IMG/VR virus record: IMGVR_UViG_3300031659_000126
Coordinates: 1-20,568 of that record
Reading direction: 5' to 3' (one strand)
From: a virus
DNA length: 20,568 bases
How positions within the stretch are numbered: position 1 is the stretch's first letter; every line of letters starts with the position of its first letter. Shown here in pieces: positions 1 through 8,547 of the stretch. The notes under the pieces are model-generated. The model was not told the DNA's origin and did not search any database. It was given only the letters and a program-made list of their open reading frames with translations. A program made the position numbers and the translations under genes.

Positions 1-236
1 CTCTTTCTAATAATATGCCTGAAAACGTTTTAGGTCTTAAGAAGGGAGGTACTGTAAAGGATGGCTTCGATCAAAGTGCGGTGGCTGGATTAAATATAGG
101 AGAGAATGTTAACCAAGACTCAGTACCGACGAATGGCGGAACTGGCGGTAATAATAACTTGGGGAATGTCAATGACAGTGCACCAACAAACGGAGGTACT
201 AGTGGTAATAATGAATTAGGAAATATTCATGAATAA
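1..236 (+). CDS. C-terminal end of an unidentified phage protein with a Gly/Asn-rich tandem repeat (5'-partial)
   Basis: The reading frame is open to the left edge (frame starting at base 3), so the ATG at 15 may be internal and this is best read as the tail of a longer gene. The visible part has no recognisable enzyme or fold signature. It is rich in Gly, Asn, Thr and Ser and ends in two near-identical 19-residue repeats (bases 117-230). Such low-complexity Gly/Asn ends occur in virion proteins as flexible linkers or fibre tails. The stop codon lies inside the start of the next gene (ATGAATAA, 229-236), which suggests translational coupling to the spike gene and a role in the same hub/spike module. 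The function is unknown. Whether it is a real gene end is fairly sure; its true start is not in the window. Confidence 0.65.
   Translation, partial: LSNNMPENVLGLKKGGTVKDGFDQSAVAGLNIGENVNQDSVPTNGGTGGNNNLGNVNDSAPTNGGTSGNNELGNIHE
117..230 (+). repeat. Two tandem 57-bp (19-codon) repeats
   Basis: Bases 117-173 encode DSVPTNGGTGGNNNLGNVN and bases 174-230 encode DSAPTNGGTSGNNELGNIH, in register and directly adjacent. The amino-acid match is much stronger than the base match, because many third positions differ. The unit is therefore kept at the protein level and is not a fresh DNA duplication. Confidence 0.9.
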
Positions 237-939
237 AAAAGAATTACAAAAGAGGAGTGATATACGAGATACTCATTGGCTAGGAACTGTAGTAGACAAT
301 AAAGATCCTGATAATTTCGGTAAATGTAAAGTTAAAGTTTTTGGTAAATTTGATTTACTAGATGACGAAGCTATTCCATGGGCGACTCCAATGAACCGTA
401 ACAATGTAGGTTCTCATTATCTTCCACATATAGGGGATGTTGTTTCTGTTAGATTTGACAATGGAAACATATACCATCCAGAATATTGGTTTCAAATCAA
501 TCAAAACAAAGAGCTTAAAGACGAGGTACTAGATTCTTCTGGAGAGCCTGACAATGTAGTGTCATTAGTATATGATGCTAAAAGAAATATTAGAATATAT
601 CAATCAGATGTTGATGGTTTAGTTATAGCGCATGGAAAAGATGGAAAAGATTCCGAGCCGCTCGTTAGATTATCCGATGATGGCAAGCTGTTTCTATATG
701 CTGCTAACATTTATATAGCGACACCAGAAGGAGATGATTTTAATGATATGGGTAACACTAGCCAGCCGGCGGTAAGAGGAGGAAGTTTAGAAGCATGGTT
801 AGCAGATTTTCTTATAGATTATAAAGCACACATACATCCTACTGGAGTAGGACCTTCAGGAACTTTATTGACACCATATGTCGAGAAGGCTCACACTATT
901 TACCAACAAGACAGTAAGTCTTCAAACGCTAACGAATAA
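229..939 (+). CDS. Baseplate central spike protein, gp5-type OB-fold, no lysozyme domain
   Basis: This 236-residue protein resembles the N-terminal OB-fold of the T4 gp5 / VgrG / gpV spike family. The match covers residues about 15-91: a start of GTVVDNKDPDNFGKCKVKVFG type, then IPWATPM, then a HIGDVVSVRF segment and an aromatic HPEYWFQIN end. A second short segment at about 200-216 (HIHPTGVGPSG) resembles the His/Pro/Gly motif near the end of gpV-like spikes. In the family this protein sits on the tail axis under the tube and forms a trimeric membrane-piercing device. T4 gp5 is about 575 residues with a lysozyme domain and a long beta-helix; both are missing here, so cell-wall cleavage must come from another protein. 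It overlaps the preceding gene by 8 bases and the following one by 1 (TAATG, 937-941). The family call is strong; the exact orthology to gp5 is inferred. Confidence 0.85.
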   Translation: MNKKELQKRSDIRDTHWLGTVVDNKDPDNFGKCKVKVFGKFDLLDDEAIPWATPMNRNNVGSHYLPHIGDVVSVRFDNGNIYHPEYWFQINQNKELKDEVLDSSGEPDNVVSLVYDAKRNIRIYQSDVDGLVIAHGKDGKDSEPLVRLSDDGKLFLYAANIYIATPEGDDFNDMGNTSQPAVRGGSLEAWLADFLIDYKAHIHPTGVGPSGTLLTPYVEKAHTIYQQDSKSSNANE

Positions 940-2450
940 TGGCTGCAGATTGGGACACATTCATAAGTAATGTCGAAAGTTATATAATAGCCGCAGATAA
1001 AGAAAAAGATCGATCTGATTTTGGAAATCATGTTGCTTTAGAATACCATAATGCTATTAAAACCGCTGAATCTCCGTTCGGCCAGACACATGTTTCAGCT
1101 ACTGAAAGTGGTTTAGTTGAAGTATATGAAGCTCAATTCGATAGAATGCAAGAAGATAAAGAGCTAGAACCACCTCTCAAAAATGCAGTAGACGACGACG
1201 GTAATGAACTACCATTTAGTGGTAAGACAAGCGACCCAGACAACCCAAATCCTGCAGCACCTGACCCTGAATACGCCGACCCTGATATGGAAGAGGTTCC
1301 GCCACCCGTAATAGACCCTGAAAAGATGCACATATTTTTAGATGGATATAGTTCAGAATATGATCTGCATAAATATAAGTTTTTTGAATTTTGTCTTACT
1401 GGTAGTGAAACACAAGACAGTTTAGTTGCTATGTTATCTAATAGAATATTAGTTTCTTTTATGTTAGAGGGTAGCGGTAGTGTTAGGGAGCAAATGGTTG
1501 AATGGATTGATAGTTTTCAGACATGGGAAGAGGGTGATCAAATTACAGGGACTAAAGCAGCATATTCTGCGTTTAAGAGTCTAGTTATAAAAGCAATTAA
1601 GGATGGGGGATATGACGATGATTATATTCTCGGTAAGGTAAGATATAGAACTATTCAAAAGTTATTTGATTCTTATGGCGTAAGCGCTATGGAAGATTCT
1701 ACAGCTACTACTGGTTTAAAAACATCTGCAAAGAATGGAAAACCATCTGAAATGATATATCACGGTTCGTTTAAAAAAGATTTTGCTGTTGAGTTTGTTC
1801 AGATTCCGTTTGATGGAGATAATACCAGTGATGATTATGAAGTTTCTCCTGTACTAACAAAAGAATTTGTAGTTTATTTTTCATTCTCAGGAAGAGGTAG
1901 TGCTTCTACTTGGCAAGATAGTCAAGTTGCTAGCGAGTATATTGAGGGTGAAATTGAGAATAAATGGGCTGAGATAATAGAACCAAAGGATGTTGAAGAC
2001 GTCGTTAATAATAAAAATAAAGCAGCTCCTTATATGTATACTAGACAGCAGACCGTCGATGCGATTGCTGAGGCGGATACTGGTGAAGGCGGAGATGATC
2101 CGTACGAATTATTAGCAAGGGAAACTATAAAGTACTGGAAAGATACTGCAGAGAAGCCGCTAAAAACTACACCTGCCGCCCCGCCATGTATAACAGAAAA
2201 ACCTCTAGGCGGAAAGTACATAACAGTATATACTGGTAGCGAAAAGAAATTAGCTGAAGGATTAAGAAAAGCACTGAACGCTGGTAAAGATTCTGATAGC
2301 ATACCAGATGCTGCTAATATGGTTGCGACTGCTCTTTCTGTTGCATATACTAAACATCTAAAGGAACTTAAGTTCATATACTTGGGTGGAATACCAGTAC
2401 CTACAGTTCCTGATATACCAATGATTGGTTTTGTGCCATTCGTCTCATAA
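939..2450 (+). CDS. Unidentified virion structural protein, probably baseplate-hub associated
   Basis: I do not recognise a family for this 503-residue protein. An N-terminal section (about 1-85) is followed by an acidic, proline-rich linker (about 85-130, many Asp/Pro/Glu), which suggests two domains joined by an extended strand. A helical part (about 130-260) follows, then a section rich in beta-forming residues (about 272-345). The C-terminus is hydrophobic and proline-rich (PVPTVPDIPMIGFVPF) but not long enough to be a clear membrane anchor. There is no signal peptide and there are no catalytic motifs. The start is fixed by the TAATG overlap with the spike gene, so the two are probably made together. 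That places it in the hub/spike assembly as a binding partner or chaperone of the spike; this is inferred from position only. Confidence 0.7.
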   Translation: MAADWDTFISNVESYIIAADKEKDRSDFGNHVALEYHNAIKTAESPFGQTHVSATESGLVEVYEAQFDRMQEDKELEPPLKNAVDDDGNELPFSGKTSDPDNPNPAAPDPEYADPDMEEVPPPVIDPEKMHIFLDGYSSEYDLHKYKFFEFCLTGSETQDSLVAMLSNRILVSFMLEGSGSVREQMVEWIDSFQTWEEGDQITGTKAAYSAFKSLVIKAIKDGGYDDDYILGKVRYRTIQKLFDSYGVSAMEDSTATTGLKTSAKNGKPSEMIYHGSFKKDFAVEFVQIPFDGDNTSDDYEVSPVLTKEFVVYFSFSGRGSASTWQDSQVASEYIEGEIENKWAEIIEPKDVEDVVNNKNKAAPYMYTRQQTVDAIAEADTGEGGDDPYELLARETIKYWKDTAEKPLKTTPAAPPCITEKPLGGKYITVYTGSEKKLAEGLRKALNAGKDSDSIPDAANMVATALSVAYTKHLKELKFIYLGGIPVPTVPDIPMIGFVPFVS

Positions 2451-2455
2451 ACCTT

Positions 2456-2464
2456 AGATATATA
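2456..2464 (+). promoter_or_regulatory. AGATATATA element upstream of the S1-like gene
   Basis: The motif AGATATATA starts 50 bases before the ATG at 2506, in the 55-base gap after the hub genes. It overlaps a TATAAT (2461-2466). The same nonamer occurs in three other gaps of this window, each 38-50 bases before a start codon. I infer a phage promoter element. Confidence 0.5.
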
Positions 2465-2492
2465 ATAAGATATTACAATTCAAATAACCCTT

Positions 2493-2506
2493 TAAAAATA
2501 AACAAA
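2493..2506 (+). promoter_or_regulatory. A-rich 14-base leader shared by two genes (translation-start context)
   Basis: TAAAAATAAACAAA ends on the A of the ATG at 2506. An identical 14-mer lies at 5513-5526 before the start at 5531. Neither has a Shine-Dalgarno sequence. A-rich, TAAAA-containing start contexts are known to support initiation in Flavobacterium and relatives, so this is probably the ribosome-loading sequence. Confidence 0.4.
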
Positions 2507-3702
2507 TGTCAAAGGAAACAGTTGTCAACAAGGACAGCAAACAACCAGAATTCGACTGGGATGCATATGAAGCTTCATGTCCAAGTGTAAGAAGAAAATC
2601 TGCAAAACGATTAAAAGATGGTACGAAAATATTTTGTACTGAACCATACGCCGAAGAATCACTAAAGGCATATAACCTAGATTTTACTGAAAATAAGAGA
2701 ATAGTTGATGTTAAACTAGACTGTTCGTATGAAGGAACTGTAGATTCTATAGATACTAAATGGTGTACTATTAATATAGGTGGAAGAGATTCTGTATACG
2801 TTGATTTAACGAAAGAAGCAGAAGAATACAGAGAATTATTAAAACCTGGCGAGAAAGTAAACGTTCAAGTTATAGAATCAAACGGTTCTATACAGGGTAA
2901 ATACATATTAGGTTCGGTTGAGGCTGGATTTAAACGTGCAATCTTTGATGAGATTCTAGAGAGTGTTGAGAATTCTAAAACTGCATATAATTCTACGGTT
3001 AAGAGTATTATACCTGGTGGAGGTTATATAGTAGAGATACAAGGTATCGAGTGTTTTATGCCAGGTTCTTTAGCTGGAATTAATAAACTTCATGACTTTG
3101 AATCAATATTAGGAACTAATATGTACGTTGTTCCTATGAGTTACTCTGCTGATAGAGGAACTATTGTAGTTTCACATAGAGAATATTTGAAAGCTATGAT
3201 TCCTACTAAAATTGCTGAAATAAAAGAATATGATAACGGCGTTGTTGTTAGAGGAAGTGTTACTGGTTCTGCTAAGTTCGGTATATTCTGTGAGTTTAAT
3301 GAGTGTTTAACTGGTATGATTCATGTAAATGACTTAGACGAGGAAACAATGAAGAGACATATGAACAGAGAAGTTGTTCCTGGAGAAGAGATTGAATTCT
3401 TTATTAAGAAGATTATTTCAGAATCTAAAATTACATTATCTCAGAAACCAGTAGAAGCGGTAACTGATCCATGGTTTAATGCTGCTGAAAGATTTAAGAC
3501 TCCGGTCGAGGTTACCGGTAAGATAAGATCTGTGAAGGATTATGGTGCGTTTGTCGACATCGGAGAAGGCCTTGTAGGGTTACTGCATGTGTCTGAATTC
3601 CCTGAAGGACATGATCTGAATGAACTTATAAAAGGCGATGACATCACAGTCACTGTCACTAGGATTGATGAGGAAACTCGTAAAGTTTTTCTTAAATTAT
3701 AA
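2506..3702 (+). CDS. Phage-encoded ribosomal protein S1-like RNA-binding protein (four S1 domains)
   Basis: This 398-residue protein contains four S1-type OB repeats at about 70-140, 163-232, 246-315 and 332-398. The last is textbook, with VTGKIRSVKDYGAFVDIGEG followed by GLLHVSE; the third has GMIHVNDL; the first two are more diverged. Cellular S1 usually has about six repeats and binds mRNA on the 30S subunit, helping initiation on mRNAs with weak ribosome-binding sites. The N-terminus contains FDWDAYE, which I recall near the N-terminus of Bacteroidota S1; this suggests descent from a host rpsA of that phylum and retained ribosome docking. It lies between tail genes but has its own 55-base upstream region, with an AGATATATA element and an A-rich leader. 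The likely role is favouring phage mRNA on host ribosomes. A regulator of its own mRNAs or an RNA chaperone is possible. The domain call is secure; the biological role is inferred. Confidence 0.9.
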   Translation: MSKETVVNKDSKQPEFDWDAYEASCPSVRRKSAKRLKDGTKIFCTEPYAEESLKAYNLDFTENKRIVDVKLDCSYEGTVDSIDTKWCTINIGGRDSVYVDLTKEAEEYRELLKPGEKVNVQVIESNGSIQGKYILGSVEAGFKRAIFDEILESVENSKTAYNSTVKSIIPGGGYIVEIQGIECFMPGSLAGINKLHDFESILGTNMYVVPMSYSADRGTIVVSHREYLKAMIPTKIAEIKEYDNGVVVRGSVTGSAKFGIFCEFNECLTGMIHVNDLDEETMKRHMNREVVPGEEIEFFIKKIISESKITLSQKPVEAVTDPWFNAAERFKTPVEVTGKIRSVKDYGAFVDIGEGLVGLLHVSEFPEGHDLNELIKGDDITVTVTRIDEETRKVFLKL

Positions 3703-3748: not shown

Positions 3749-4102
3749 ATGAAATTAACAGAACAAAAACTAAGAGAGATCATTAGAGAAGAATTAAAAT
3801 CTAACGGTACAGTAAGCGAAATAGCTCCAGTTATTGCAGCTGTCGCAAGACAAGCAGTAGCTTCAGCAGTTGCTAAAAAAGTTAGCGAACAGGTAGAAGA
3901 AGGTATCGCACCAGGAGTTGATGATGTTGTTAAACTTGTAACGGCTTCTGCTGATATGTATGACAGTGATGATAATGAAGATCACAAAGGAAACGACTAC
4001 ATAGAAGAATGTAAAGAGGTTCTTGAAAATGCTATCGCTAAGATTGCTACTCAAGTTGCTACAGACGCTGCTTCTGCTGCAATTGCTAAGAAGATGTCAT
4101 AG
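3749..4102 (+). CDS. Small Ala-rich helical protein with an LREIIREEL-type N-terminus
   Basis: This 117-residue protein is of unknown function. It opens with MKLTEQKLREIIREELKS, an amphipathic helix. Similar K-L-T-x-x-x-L-R-x-I-I-R-E-E-type starts recur, as far as I recall, on otherwise unrelated small proteins of large marine T4-like phages, where they may act as a targeting or packaging tag. After the tag come two Ala/Val-rich helical segments (about 27-48 and 88-117) separated by an acidic stretch (about 55-85). There is no signal peptide and no membrane segment long enough to be convincing. It follows the S1-like gene after a 46-base AT-only-like gap and is closed by a strong terminator at 4140-4167, so it ends a transcription unit. 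It may be a head- or virion-associated small protein; this is a guess from the N-terminal tag. Confidence 0.75.
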   Translation: MKLTEQKLREIIREELKSNGTVSEIAPVIAAVARQAVASAVAKKVSEQVEEGIAPGVDDVVKLVTASADMYDSDDNEDHKGNDYIEECKEVLENAIAKIATQVATDAASAAIAKKMS

Positions 4103-4139
4103 TACTGTATAAATTAGAATACATAAATATTAATAAATT

Positions 4140-4167
4140 AATCCCGTTCGAAAGATCGGGATTTTTT
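4140..4167 (+). terminator. Intrinsic terminator with a GAAA tetraloop
   Basis: The hairpin has a 7-bp stem, AATCCCG (4140-4146) with CGGGATT (4157-4163). A T-T mismatch and two more pairs follow, closed by a C-GAAA-G tetraloop (4149-4154). The T run extends to 4167. It is the only clear rho-independent terminator I see in the window and separates the S1/small-protein unit from the amidoligase unit. Confidence 0.85.
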
Positions 4168-4181
4168 ATGTTCAAAAATTA

Positions 4182-4219: not shown

Positions 4220-5512
4220 ATGAACAGATTTAACGACGCAGAAATATTATCTAAATCTTTAGTAGGTGTAGAGTTTGAATTCTACTCTAATAAAGATATA
4301 AGTACTACAGCTAAAGAGCTTGGAGCATTGTTATCTAAAAAAATTAGAGTCGAAGACAAAGCCCATAGTGATTTCGTACCTACTAGAAGTGAATTTAAGA
4401 TAGAACCTGATATGAGTGGTGGGGAAAAGCTTATGGAATTAGTAACAGGCGCTCAACCATATGCCGACGCAAGGCTTTTAATTATAAGAGTTTCTCAATG
4501 GATTAAAGAGAATGGATTCACGAATGATAGAACTTCGATTCACTTAAATCTTTCATTCGATACTAGTAAAATAGAAAATAAACGAAGAATATCTATGATG
4601 AATGTTCTTAAATTTATTTTAGAATTTGATGAGGCCGCAGTTTTTTCTTTGTTTCCGCAAAGAAAAAACTCAGCATACGCTAAATCCGTAAAGTTCGTGC
4701 TTCCAAATTCAGAGACGTTTAATATAGATGGTGATTTAATAGATGAGCATAACTTTACATTCCCATCATCTAAATACTATGGTATTAATTTCGAGAAGAG
4801 AATCAAAAATTATTTAGAGTTTAGATATATCGGTGGAAAGGATTGGGAAACAAAAACTAATAAGATATTACATCTGCTTGATTCGTTTTTAGTTCAATTA
4901 TGGAAAAGTACAGAATCTAGAAGGTTTACTCATTTGAATTCACTAGAACTTAAAGACGTTCTTTCAAAGAATAGAAGAATTATAGACGCAAGAACTGACT
5001 GGAGAGTGATTGAAAAGAAATGGAAGAATATTGATTTTACAGTAGACCTACACAGAGACTCAGAAATTATACAATTATACTGGTCTAATATACAAAGAAG
5101 AGTTTTAAGATTGTTTACTCATGGTGCTCTTAAAAAAGGACATATAAATTACGACACAGATACTGGAAGAGTTCAAGTGAGTGCCGGAGAATTATCGTAT
5201 TGTGTTGCTCTTGAGGGTTATGATTTTATTGATTGTGATATTAAGGGAGAGATACAACAGTGCGATGTATTTGGAGGAACTATGAGCGACTCTGATATTA
5301 CCGACTGTAATTTCTATAATAACGCAAAAATAAAATCATCTAAAATTAAGAGTTGCTATATTAGTGCGGATTCTGCTGTTACTGATGGTTATATTTACGG
5401 GAGAGGTATTCTTAAGGGTAGTATGATAGGAGGTATATTCAGAGAGGGTACATATGATAAAGTAAGAGCAAGGTTCAAAGGTACTGAGAAAATAAGGTAC
5501 GACGAAGTATAA
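4220..5512 (+). CDS. Amidoligase-like enzyme (COOH-NH2 ligase family) with a C-terminal repetitive beta-solenoid-like tail
   Basis: The first 210 residues carry the pattern of the putative amidoligases (Amidoligase_2, glutamine-synthetase-like fold). There is an opening GVEFEF strand (16-21), then IEPDMSGGEKLMELVTG (61-77, matching the family's D-x-S ... E-[IL]-V block), SIHLNLSF (106-113, the family's His-containing strand) and LEFRYIGG (199-206). The family is predicted to join a carboxyl to an amine using ATP, to modify peptides, proteins or cell-wall components; substrates are mostly unknown. Residues about 340-416 form a different region, with short-period repeats of Ile/Cys/Phe alternating with Asp/Ser/Asn/Gly, as in pentapeptide-like or beta-helix stacks. 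Such a part could bind a surface or give trimeric attachment. The gene is isolated by the terminator at 4140-4167 and has its own promoter-like motifs. The enzyme call is motif-based only; activity and substrate are unknown. Confidence 0.7.
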   Translation: MNRFNDAEILSKSLVGVEFEFYSNKDISTTAKELGALLSKKIRVEDKAHSDFVPTRSEFKIEPDMSGGEKLMELVTGAQPYADARLLIIRVSQWIKENGFTNDRTSIHLNLSFDTSKIENKRRISMMNVLKFILEFDEAAVFSLFPQRKNSAYAKSVKFVLPNSETFNIDGDLIDEHNFTFPSSKYYGINFEKRIKNYLEFRYIGGKDWETKTNKILHLLDSFLVQLWKSTESRRFTHLNSLELKDVLSKNRRIIDARTDWRVIEKKWKNIDFTVDLHRDSEIIQLYWSNIQRRVLRLFTHGALKKGHINYDTDTGRVQVSAGELSYCVALEGYDFIDCDIKGEIQQCDVFGGTMSDSDITDCNFYNNAKIKSSKIKSCYISADSAVTDGYIYGRGILKGSMIGGIFREGTYDKVRARFKGTEKIRYDEV

Positions 5513-5530: not shown

Positions 5531-6337
5531 ATGAGTAATATATTTACAGGTGGAGCAACTGGTATGGCAACAGAACATGATTTCGGTTCATCTTGCTTGA
5601 ATGATTTCGTCGCAGAGATCGGTAACGAGATAACGGGCGCATGTATGATTCCGATGAATCTTCCATCTTCTGAAGTTGAAGCTATTATTAATAGAGCTAA
5701 GAAGTGGTTTTATAAAAAATACGAGTATTCTGTTCAAGAGAATTTCTTTGTAATACCGAAAGCTGCATTTTCTACTACATATTTCAAAGCATCAAGAACT
5801 ATTAATATGCCATCAACTGTATACTCTATATTTGGTGTTCATAAAACAAACGGAAATTCTATAACTGGTGATGTTGATTTTGCTAGTGGAGATTTTTCAG
5901 TAGAGAGAATGTTCGCTGGTAACATGTACGGAAGTGGAGGAGTCGCTGGTGCAGCAGAGAGTTTAGAATATTATGTAATAAACGAGAAGTTTTTTGACTT
6001 AGCGAGACAAATATTAAATAACCCATTCAGTTTCGATTATAATAGACTTAAACGAGCTTTAAGATTTACTGGAGAGACGCCAACAACTGATGTTGTGCTG
6101 GAGGTTTATGAAACTATTCCTGATTGTGCGCTATATGAAGATGAGATATTTTTTAGATACTGTGCGGCTAAAATAAAGGTTTCCCTTGGTAATAAATTAA
6201 GCGTTTTTGAGTTTCAATTACCTGGTAACATAACGGTAAATGGAGGCGCTATACTTGACATGGGACAGAGCGAACTTGAGGCGATCATAGAAGAAATTAA
6301 CGAGGATGAAGGAACTGATTGGATGATGCATTCTTAA
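5531..6337 (+). CDS. Unidentified tail/baseplate structural protein
   Basis: I cannot name a family for this 268-residue protein with confidence. It has an N-terminal helical part with an aromatic motif (about 50-70: AKKWFYKKYEYS), a mixed middle with a Gly-rich loop (about 125-145), and a C-terminal part. That last part has a Cys-containing helix (EDEIFFRYCAAKIKVSLG) followed by an acidic end (about 235-268). The layout of a charged helix, then a Gly/Leu-rich strand, then an acidic tail is of the sort seen in neck, tail-completion and sheath-contact proteins, but this is only a resemblance. The ATG at 5531 was chosen because the A-rich leader precedes it; an internal ATG at 5573 (MATEHDF) is a possible alternative. 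It sits directly before the wedge genes, 16 bases from the gp25-like start, so a baseplate or tail-assembly role is likely. Confidence 0.7.
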   Translation: MSNIFTGGATGMATEHDFGSSCLNDFVAEIGNEITGACMIPMNLPSSEVEAIINRAKKWFYKKYEYSVQENFFVIPKAAFSTTYFKASRTINMPSTVYSIFGVHKTNGNSITGDVDFASGDFSVERMFAGNMYGSGGVAGAAESLEYYVINEKFFDLARQILNNPFSFDYNRLKRALRFTGETPTTDVVLEVYETIPDCALYEDEIFFRYCAAKIKVSLGNKLSVFEFQLPGNITVNGGAILDMGQSELEAIIEEINEDEGTDWMMHS

Positions 6338-6353
6338 TTGAATATATAGTTAT

Positions 6354-6707
6354 ATGGAATTTTACATAAAGAAATACGGAGACCCTAAATTTGACAATAG
6401 TCAGATGGAAATTGATGATGAAATTACAGAGCTTCTGATTCAATTAGAAACCATGCTGTTTACAACTAAGGGTTCTGTGTTGGGCTCTCCGGAGTTTGGT
6501 TTAAATCTAGATGATTATGTTTATTCTTTTAGATATAACGATAATATGCTGGTTAAACTTATTAGGGAGGATATTAATAGGTTCATACCACTATCAAAAA
6601 AATATAGCGTGGAGGTAACTGCTGATTTTACAGATGAAGTTGATAGACACTTAGTGTTTATCAGTATTGTAGTAGACGCAAAGTACCAAGTAGGTCTTTA
6701 CATATAA
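6354..6707 (+). CDS. Baseplate wedge protein, GPW/gp25 family
   Basis: This 117-residue protein has the size and signature of the gp25/GpW lysozyme-like baseplate family. An N-terminal helical part (ITELLIQLETMLFTTKGSVLG, about 24-44) leads to the conserved turn SPEFGLNLDDYVY (45-57). This corresponds to the G-x-P-x-F-G-x-x-L block of the family. A helix (about 62-75) and two closing strands follow. In T4, gp25 sits in the inner baseplate, holds the wedge to the central hub and starts sheath polymerisation; the name notwithstanding, lysozyme activity is not needed for this. It is followed after 16 bases by the gp6-like gene, the conserved gp25-gp6 pairing of contractile injection systems, which makes the call firm. 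Confidence 0.9.
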   Translation: MEFYIKKYGDPKFDNSQMEIDDEITELLIQLETMLFTTKGSVLGSPEFGLNLDDYVYSFRYNDNMLVKLIREDINRFIPLSKKYSVEVTADFTDEVDRHLVFISIVVDAKYQVGLYI

Positions 6708-6723
6708 AACATTAATAATTAAA

Positions 6724-8547
6724 ATGGAATACAAATTCAAATATTTAGAAAAGTCAAGGATTAAGACGGCAGAAATGATAAAAGATACTCAAACTTTCAT
6801 CAGTAGGGTATACGATAGGGCGGGTACTCTATTTACATCAGCTTCTCCGTTTGCCCAGATATTAAACGTATTACAAGAACTTTCGAGTTTTGTTTTCCTC
6901 TATATAGAAGATGCTTTAGTAGAACAAAATATATTAACAGCTCAACATAAAGAATCTGTTTATGGTTTATCAAGACTTGCGGGTCATGATCCATTTAGAG
7001 GCTCTGCAGCACAGGGAGAAATAAGAATTAGATTAAATCCGTCTGCTGTAGCTGAGGTTGCAGGAGATGCTATCAACATACTTCCAGATAGTTTAATTAA
7101 GATGGAGGCTAACGGTTTAAAATATACAATGTTAACAAATTCAGATAAGTTTAGGGTTTCAAAATCAAATTCTGGATTTATTAGAATACCTATAATTCAA
7201 GGAGAGGTTGAAAAACAAACAGTAACAGGTACTGGTGAAAAGTTTCAATCATTCAATATAATAACAAAAGCAAGTACGGACCACAGTCAGGTTAGAGTTT
7301 CTGTAAATAGTATTACGTGGCAGAAATTCGATTCTATATATGATATGAAGGTTGGTACTCCTGGTTTTATTGTAAAGACAGGTATCAGTGGAGGCTTAGA
7401 TATTTATTTCGGTAATGGAAGTTTTGGAGCTCTTCCAGTTTTAGGTAGTTCTATAGAGATTAAGTATATAAAAAACAAAGGAGATAATGGGAATTTAATA
7501 GGAGGTAAGAATTTAAGATTTAAGTTTGATGATGATGGTTTTGATAGTTTAGGAAACTCATATGACTTAAATGAGTTATTAGAAACTGAAGTAACAATTA
7601 CACCTAGAATGGGTTCTAATCCTGAAAGTATAGAGCTTACAAAACTTATTGCGCCGCTGCAATCACATGCTTTTGTATTAGCGACTCCAGATAATTATGA
7701 AGCGTTTTTATCTCAATATGGTATGTTTTCATACTTAGACGCGTACAGTACAACGGACGATGGATACTTAGATGATGATAATGTTATCTATTTATTTATG
7801 CTACCTGATGTTAAAAGAAAACTTACTAATAATAAAGATTATTTTAGTTTGGAGGTTGATGAATTCTTCTTTTCTGAAGACGAGAACAACGCAGTGCTTG
7901 AGGTAATTGAAAAATCAGGTAGACAGATGCTGACGTCAGAGGTTAAAATTACTCCTCCGTCTCCTCAGTATTTTAGAATGGATATTAAAGTAAGGTATTT
8001 CGAAGGATATGATAAACATAGTATATTCAACAACATCAGGTCTTCAATATCAGAATATCTAATGAACATTACTCGCCGAGATAGATTACCAAAATCTGAT
8101 ATAATAGCTATACTAGAAGGCGTCGCAGGTATCGACTCAGTTAACGTAAGATTCGTTAGTAAAACTGAAGAAGACGCAAGGAGACTTGGTTACTATACCT
8201 CAGAAACTGTAATCATCACACCATCCACTCCAATACTAGAAGACATAGGTAATGGACAGCAAAAATTCGTATTCTTTAAAAGAACAGTAAAGAAAAAAAC
8301 GGTTAGATTTGCAAAAGACGCGGCTCTCCCAGAAAACGTAATAAACTTAGATTCATTTGGAGATATTCTTTTAGAAAAAGATGAGGTTGCTTTATTTAGA
8401 GGCGGCTGGACAGATAGAGATAATGTTCTAGTTGATGATGACGCGTTAATTGGAGAGATGGGAGCATTATCAGTTTACTTTGATGATCCCGCAGTTCCTC
8501 AAACTATATTCACTAGAGTGCAGGCAAAAAATAGAAAAACGCTATAA
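6724..8547 (+). CDS. Baseplate wedge protein, gp6 / baseplate-J-like
   Basis: This 607-residue protein is close to the length of T4 gp6 (about 660). The N-terminal block (about 40-95: PFAQILNVLQELSSFVFLY, then ...NILTAQHKESVYGLSRLAGHDP) is the start typical of gp6/gpJ wedge proteins. In these, a long helix packs against the sheath initiator and is followed by a Leu-Ala-Gly turn. A middle beta domain follows (about 98-280). The C-terminal region includes SDIIAILEGVAGIDSVNVRFVS (about 457-478), matching the ferredoxin-like end seen in J-type proteins. Gp6 forms the ring that holds the wedges together and opens on contraction. The gene follows gp25-like directly and overlaps the next gene by one base (TAATG, 8545-8549). 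The call rests on motifs, length and order together. Confidence 0.85.
   Translation: MEYKFKYLEKSRIKTAEMIKDTQTFISRVYDRAGTLFTSASPFAQILNVLQELSSFVFLYIEDALVEQNILTAQHKESVYGLSRLAGHDPFRGSAAQGEIRIRLNPSAVAEVAGDAINILPDSLIKMEANGLKYTMLTNSDKFRVSKSNSGFIRIPIIQGEVEKQTVTGTGEKFQSFNIITKASTDHSQVRVSVNSITWQKFDSIYDMKVGTPGFIVKTGISGGLDIYFGNGSFGALPVLGSSIEIKYIKNKGDNGNLIGGKNLRFKFDDDGFDSLGNSYDLNELLETEVTITPRMGSNPESIELTKLIAPLQSHAFVLATPDNYEAFLSQYGMFSYLDAYSTTDDGYLDDDNVIYLFMLPDVKRKLTNNKDYFSLEVDEFFFSEDENNAVLEVIEKSGRQMLTSEVKITPPSPQYFRMDIKVRYFEGYDKHSIFNNIRSSISEYLMNITRRDRLPKSDIIAILEGVAGIDSVNVRFVSKTEEDARRLGYYTSETVIITPSTPILEDIGNGQQKFVFFKRTVKKKTVRFAKDAALPENVINLDSFGDILLEKDEVALFRGGWTDRDNVLVDDDALIGEMGALSVYFDDPAVPQTIFTRVQAKNRKTL

Follow-up and report, generated by a model that had tools for sequence, protein, structure and literature searches.

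A four-domain bS1-like protein encoded in the tail module of phages that probably infect Bacteroidota

Phage-encoded ribosomal proteins

Huge phages were reported to encode rpS1-like proteins while their genomes rarely carry Shine-Dalgarno (SD) sequences, and it was proposed that these proteins act in initiation, whether bound to the ribosome or not (Al-Shayeb et al. 2020, PMC7162821). Both the occurrence of such proteins in phages and their association with genomes lacking SD sequences are already published in that work; the parts of the paper covered do not mention tail synteny or bS1-bS21 pairing. The Microcystis phage PhiMa05/MaAM05 also encodes a bS1 among other ribosomal proteins, which is reported to derive from Vampirovibrio-like bacteria (2026 paper). 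In Bacteroidetes phages, genes for another ribosomal protein, bS21, were found in the late structural block and a change of initiation was proposed (Chen et al. 2022; Mizuno et al. 2019). These bS21 genes are transcribed late together with the structural genes (Chen et al. 2022, PMC9723584). Mizuno et al. set S1 aside as an ambiguous domain.

Bacteroidota translate without SD pairing, and bS1 may take part in their choice of mRNAs by reading A-rich sequence at -12 to -15 (PMC6847099). The number of domains in bS1 ranges from one to six among bacteria (PMC6705787). In E. coli, Phe5 and Phe9 fix bS1 to uS2, Lys43 inserts into the Zn pocket of uS2, and OB1 is contacted by bS21 on the 30S subunit (PMC10123108).

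The locus analysed here differs from the PhiMa05/MaAM05 system, where bS1 has a separate origin and lies beside rplU/rpmA rather than tail genes, and from the Bacteroidetes-phage bS21 genes, which code for a different protein; in the present group bS21 and S1 share contigs. New are the core-gene status of S1, its tail-module synteny, its four-domain form, the conservation of its docking residues and its pairing with bS21. No description of a core S1 of the tail module paired with bS21 was found in the literature covered, which consists mostly of open-access journal articles.

The tail module and its conservation

The window, i.e. the whole stretch of 20,568 nucleotides analysed (IMG/VR record IMGVR_UViG_3300031659_000126), harbours the S1 gene, with ATG as start codon, in a tail module (Table 1). 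The initial annotation had placed this gene between spike and wedge genes, and this is correct: a gp5-like gene lies upstream and gp25 and gp6 genes lie downstream. The placement had been called unusual, but within this group every testable relative shares it. The same neighbourhood was found in thirty IMG/VR loci retrieved via S1. Retrieval by gp6 alone, an unbiased test of S1 presence, yielded 69 testable loci, all with S1 in the same slot, after 11 further loci too short to hold the slot had been left out. Among loci retrieved by the amidoligase-like gene, 76 of 78 harbour S1, and the two in which it is not seen have less than 2.2 kb of upstream sequence, too little to judge. The order gp5-S1-amidoligase-neck is kept in LR756500, a 462 kb phage. 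At least 580 relatives, not all of which need belong to the subfamily of the window, were found in IMG/VR by a wider scan.

Table 1 Features of the S1 locus in the window
Feature	Position	Strand	Evidence
gp5-like baseplate hub/spike	229..939	+	PF04717 (3e-8), phrog_37871
Fast-evolving 503-aa protein, gene located between those of spike and S1	939..2450	+	Profile searches, divergence
ATATATAA box, candidate late promoter of S1, 48 nt before the ATG	2458..2465	+	Motif conservation, strand bias
bS1-like protein, 398 aa, four OB domains (corresponding to bS1 OB1-OB4)	2506..3702	+	HMM matches, AlphaFold2, Foldseek, hhalign
FDWDAYE codons (residues 16-22), F-x-W docking-like motif common to Bacteroidia-type bS1	2551..2571	+	Cluster and rpsA counts
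Arg94 codon, position of E. coli bS1 Lys43 (inserts in uS2 Zn pocket)	2785..2787	+	Alignment
OB2 (residues 157-228), most conserved domain, phage signature FMPGSLAGINKL	2974..3189	+	Per-domain conservation
OB3 (residues 240-315), with F/Y258, F261 and H273 as expected RNA contacts	3223..3450	+	Cluster conservation
OB4 (residues 330-398), canonical S1 domain	3493..3699	+	PF00575, conservation
Amidoligase_2-like 430-aa protein, conserved, downstream of S1	4220..5512	+	PF12224, synteny
Neck (Ad2-like), gp25 and gp6 wedge genes	5531..8547	+	phrog_211, PF04965, phrog_219
gp25-like	6354-6707		Pfam/PHROG
gp6-like	6724-8547		Pfam/PHROG

Upstream of S1, an [AG]TATATA motif is present at -62..-29 of the start in 41 of 45 phage clusters, compared to a mean of 7.2 and a maximum of 14 in shuffles. 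In a 170-kb relative, [AG]TATATAA is strand-biased (73 vs 25) and lies ahead of S1, of the amidoligase-like gene and of several structural genes. TATATAA is regarded as a candidate late promoter. The phage S1 is under strong purifying selection: its dN/dS values against near relatives, with some dS values near saturation, are 0.09-0.10, like those of gp6. The constant slot (69/69), the strong constraint and the conserved promoter-like box argue against a stray insertion, and the synteny rules out that S1 entered the tail operon by chance.

The invariant slot in the tail module and a constraint as strong as that on the wedge protein gp6 would also fit a protein of the virion or of tail assembly, with the S1/OB domains acting as part of the baseplate, as an assembly factor or as a packaged and injected protein. 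However, none of the known tail proteins in PHROG was matched by the S1 protein, its gene has a separate promoter-like box, and its predicted RNA- and ribosome-contact residues are conserved (see below). A function in the virion is considered very improbable.

Domain organization of the S1 protein

The ORF encodes a bS1 homologue, with homology far above chance. The initial annotation had proposed an HMM search for S1 repeats. In this search curated bS1 models matched nearly the full length of the protein, with E values of 2e-46 for NF004952, 1.6e-42 for NF004953 (from residue 8 onwards) and 3e-40 for TIGR00717, and E. coli bS1 was matched in the PDB (2.5e-38). The scores for all bS1 models are below the equivalog cut-offs, with 158 bits against 524 for NF004952 and 146 bits against 720 for NF004953. 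NF004953 behaves as a Bacteroidota bS1 model: in the phylum to which Bacteroides clarus belongs, 60 of the 61 genomes sampled score above its cut-off, as does 1 of 14 control genomes. With Pfam alone only the last domains are clear (PF00575, E 8.7e-19, two stretches).

Alignment of the phage S1 family with Bacteroidota bS1 by hhalign covers OB1-OB4 and then ends (99.9% probability, 26-27% identity). The four S1 domains that had been read from the sequence were recovered as four OB barrels in an AlphaFold2 model, at about residues 74-137, 161-223, 247-312 and 334-397; with a mean pLDDT of 73 and a pTM of 0.43, this model does not predict the relative arrangement of the domains. Its best Foldseek match was E. 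coli bS1 on the 30S subunit (E 1e-24), and the ribosome-bound OB1-OB2 of 9guq was matched at a TM of 0.70 of the target. The last domain had been described as canonical, in agreement with its PF00575 match and its conserved OB4 residues. OB1-OB4 are present and collinear with those of bS1, and OB5-OB6 are absent; most likely, the gene product is a trimmed viral bS1. It shares with Bacteroidota bS1 (rpsA; NF004953) the order of OB1-OB4, an F-x-W motif, a basic residue at the position of the uS2 contact and the expected RNA-contact residues of OB3 and OB4. Apart from the missing OB5-OB6, it differs in about 20 residues inserted ahead of OB1, in an identity of about 26%, in the OB2 signature FMPGSLAGINKL and in scoring below the equivalog cut-off.

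Phylogeny of viral S1 proteins

In a tree based on OB1-OB4, from which the N-terminal motif was left out, the S1 proteins of the window family, of phages of 462-735 kb and of Lak phages form one clade (16 rows, SH-aLRT 100), whose stem measures 4.8 changes per site. Given this single phage clade and its very long stem, a recent acquisition of the gene from a host was rejected. The huge-phage and Lak proteins, which likewise come from SD-poor genomes, are more diverged than those of the window family. PhiMa05 S1 falls outside the viral clade on a long branch. The position of the clade among rpsA is not discriminated by the AU test (p 0.49 with a Bacteroidia-like clade, 0.52 with Gammaproteobacteria), and it is only the N-terminal motif that points to Bacteroidia as the origin of the gene.

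Several GenBank "phage" records carry an apparent bacterial rpsA, either by contamination or as mislabelled contigs. "Phage" hits from Acinetobacter, Listeria and Enterococcus look like such rpsA contamination and were used as outgroups only. A scan of genome contigs with phage S1 patterns revealed no relative; a repeat of the contig scan was done with the Bacteroidales rpsA contaminating a phage record.

The N-terminus and predicted docking on uS2

Phe16 and Trp18 of the phage S1 are invariant in all 45 phage clusters. FDWDAYE had been annotated as a Bacteroidota S1-like N-terminus, and the rpsA comparison supports this. An F-x-W motif precedes OB1 in 19/19 rows of one Bacteroidota rpsA clade, comprising Bacteroides, Parabacteroides, Barnesiella, Dysgonomonas, Marinifilum and other genomes, and is absent from all 24 other rpsA (0/19 remaining rows of the phylum sample, 0/5 outgroups). 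Within the tree set it is present in all nine window-family rows and in both Lak rows; it was not found in the 635-735 kb phages or in LR756500. The motif may have been inherited or may have arisen by convergence; either way, the same binding partner is suggested. It is followed by the phage-specific insert and then by OB1, which is among the least conserved domains of phage S1 and yet has a basic residue at position 94 in 45/45 clusters (Arg in 38, Lys in 7). The equivalent of Lys43 is Lys in the Bacteroidota proteins aligned and in huge phages, and uncharged in Lak. Docking may differ in the 635-735 kb phages, in LR756500 and in Lak, since these lack either F-x-W or, in the case of Lak, the basic residue. 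For the window family, the conservation of both the N-terminal aromatics and the Lys43 equivalent favours docking of the viral S1 on the 30S subunit.

Conservation of OB2-OB4 and predicted RNA contacts

OB2-OB4 are far better conserved than OB1 in phage S1. The FMPGSLAGINKL signature of OB2 was recognisable in all eight divergent phage S1 proteins aligned. Over the 45 phage clusters, OB3 has an aromatic residue at 258 and Phe at 261 in 45/45 and His273 in 42/45, while in OB4 Tyr346, Phe349, His361 and Lys393 are invariant and Arg392 is found in 43/45. From general knowledge of S1 domains we take the OB3 positions and the invariant OB4 positions to be RNA contacts, and at these expected positions the RNA-contact residues of OB3 and OB4 appear to be retained in the viral S1.

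The stronger conservation of OB2-OB4 is also what may be expected of an RNA-binding protein that works away from the ribosome, as a chaperone or translational regulator of A/U-rich late transcripts, protecting or unfolding them or regulating tail genes without docking on 30S. Many RNA-binding proteins use S1 domains, and Al-Shayeb et al. allowed a role "on or off the ribosome". However, such a protein would not need F-x-W or the basic uS2-contact residue, and the invariance of these residues within otherwise poorly conserved segments therefore counts against this explanation, which is regarded as unlikely.

Loss of OB5-OB6 with retention of the anchor could also characterize a host shut-off factor. 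Such a factor would occupy the uS2 site and displace full-length host bS1, leaving mRNAs that need OB5-OB6 untranslated. The location of the gene among structural genes, which are usually made in quantity, would suit it. However, the expected RNA-contact residues of OB3 and OB4 are still constrained, and the SD-less mRNAs of the phage itself would need an active S1; host shut-off is considered distinctly improbable.

Initiation signals of the phage genes

SD cores (GGAG/GAGG) precede none of the 13 genes in the window, as had been noted initially, and are depleted in the 170-kb relative (2 of 176 genes vs 11.6 expected). The leaders are A-rich (54-58% A); in the 170-kb relative, A peaks at -13 (72%) and reaches 63% at -3. 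In F. johnsoniae, A at -3, -6, -12 and -13 promotes initiation, and domain 4 of bS1 would sit near mRNA positions -12 to -15 (Baez et al. 2019, PMC6847099). The viral S1 ends directly after domain 4, and the phage leaders peak in A at -13. Since the leaders match the F. johnsoniae pattern, they would need no special ribosome, and the phage seems adapted to the initiation rules of its host. When F. johnsoniae bS1 was added in vitro, its effects were modest and depended on the mRNA (PMC9976891). The suggestion that S1 retunes ribosomes toward A-rich phage leaders is unsupported, as these leaders resemble the published Flavobacterium pattern. What stands of the initial interpretation is a bS1-type protein with a Bacteroidota-like N-terminus, encoded in a structural module, in which the predicted contact residues for ribosome and RNA are retained. 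Its general idea had already appeared for huge phages (PMC7162821). The viral S1 may add capacity, take the place of host bS1 or favour late mRNAs.

Co-encoded bS21 and a proposed mechanism

bS21 (PF01165) was found in 19 of 36 S1-bearing IMG/VR records (4/11 and 15/25), many of which are fragments, and in 4 of 5 huge phages, thus in 4/7 huge-phage or Lak records; a search of two Lak genomes did not find it. In the contigs examined that allowed both ends to be placed, bS21 shares its strand with S1 and precedes it by about 15-17 kb. No bS21 was found in the 170-kb relative; in this lineage the conserved slot (83364-83457) is empty while its neighbours are kept. In a small search set, phage bS21 resembles that of Parabacteroides (E values as low as 3e-15), and the sequences examined keep Tyr at the Bacteroidia-specific Tyr54 position. 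Tyr54 of F. johnsoniae bS21 stacks on A1534 and helps to hide the anti-SD (PMC9976891). A Bacteroidia host is supported by this resemblance and by Tyr54, and the virus group with S1 in its tail module probably infects Bacteroidota.

It is proposed that the viral S1 would be made late in infection alongside the tail proteins. Through its N-terminal aromatic motif and OB1 (Arg94) it would bind uS2 on the 30S subunit of a Bacteroidia host, either replacing host bS1 or sitting next to it. OB2-OB4 would then capture A/U-rich leaders of late mRNAs that lack SD sequences and pass these on to the decoding site. The same-strand bS21 gene that related phages have about 15 kb upstream of S1 would provide a partner in refitting host ribosomes. 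Because phage bS21 is the co-encoded counterpart of a 30S neighbour that contacts bS1, host ribosomes may gain two matching initiation proteins. Of this mechanism we infer the host, the late timing, the 30S binding and the favoured mRNAs. Against it speak the lineages without bS21, the huge phages and Lak with their missing docking residues, the modest effects of F. johnsoniae bS1 in vitro, the phage-specific insert before OB1, for which the mechanism does not account, and the host-like leaders, which make a gain for phage mRNAs not evident. On balance the evidence tips slightly toward a four-domain viral bS1 that is anchored to 30S via uS2 and catches SD-less late leaders, sometimes together with phage bS21, and the virus may in this way re-equip the host ribosome late in infection.

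A broader version is more doubtful, though conceivable: in a major lineage of Bacteroidota phages, a core late pair of four-domain bS1 and Bacteroidia-type bS21 would remake the 30S platform as an initiation machine specific to the virus, and S1 would be no less obligatory than the baseplate wedge. If true, ribosome refitting can be a core rather than an accessory function in a widespread phage group. The compact viral S1 (anchor plus OB2-OB4), often accompanied by bS21, would be a natural minimal tool to probe mRNA choice in Bacteroidota.

Other features of the locus

A second motif, ATATTTAC, occurs at about -31, mostly before other genes. It is strand-biased like [AG]TATATAA, and the two motifs resemble separate classes of promoter in this phage group, with sites in the window at 2458 and 4184. 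A conserved 5' leader motif, TTAAC-CTT, was rejected as an autoregulatory site as it is not specific to S1. In one relative locus S1 appears to be split into two ORFs (5698-7026), a possible frameshift or assembly error. Downstream of S1 in the window, a 117-aa protein beginning with KLTEQKLREIIREEL is encoded at 3749-4102, which is present in some near relatives only, and a terminator-like hairpin (AATCCCG...CGGGATTTTTT, 4135-4175) separates its gene from that of the amidoligase-like protein. PF12224 was matched by 6 of 8 members of the amidoligase-like family (best 3.5e-8). The amidoligase-like protein has a repeat-like C-terminus, and its gene nearly always adjoins S1; speculatively, it could modify, for example, a ribosomal protein.
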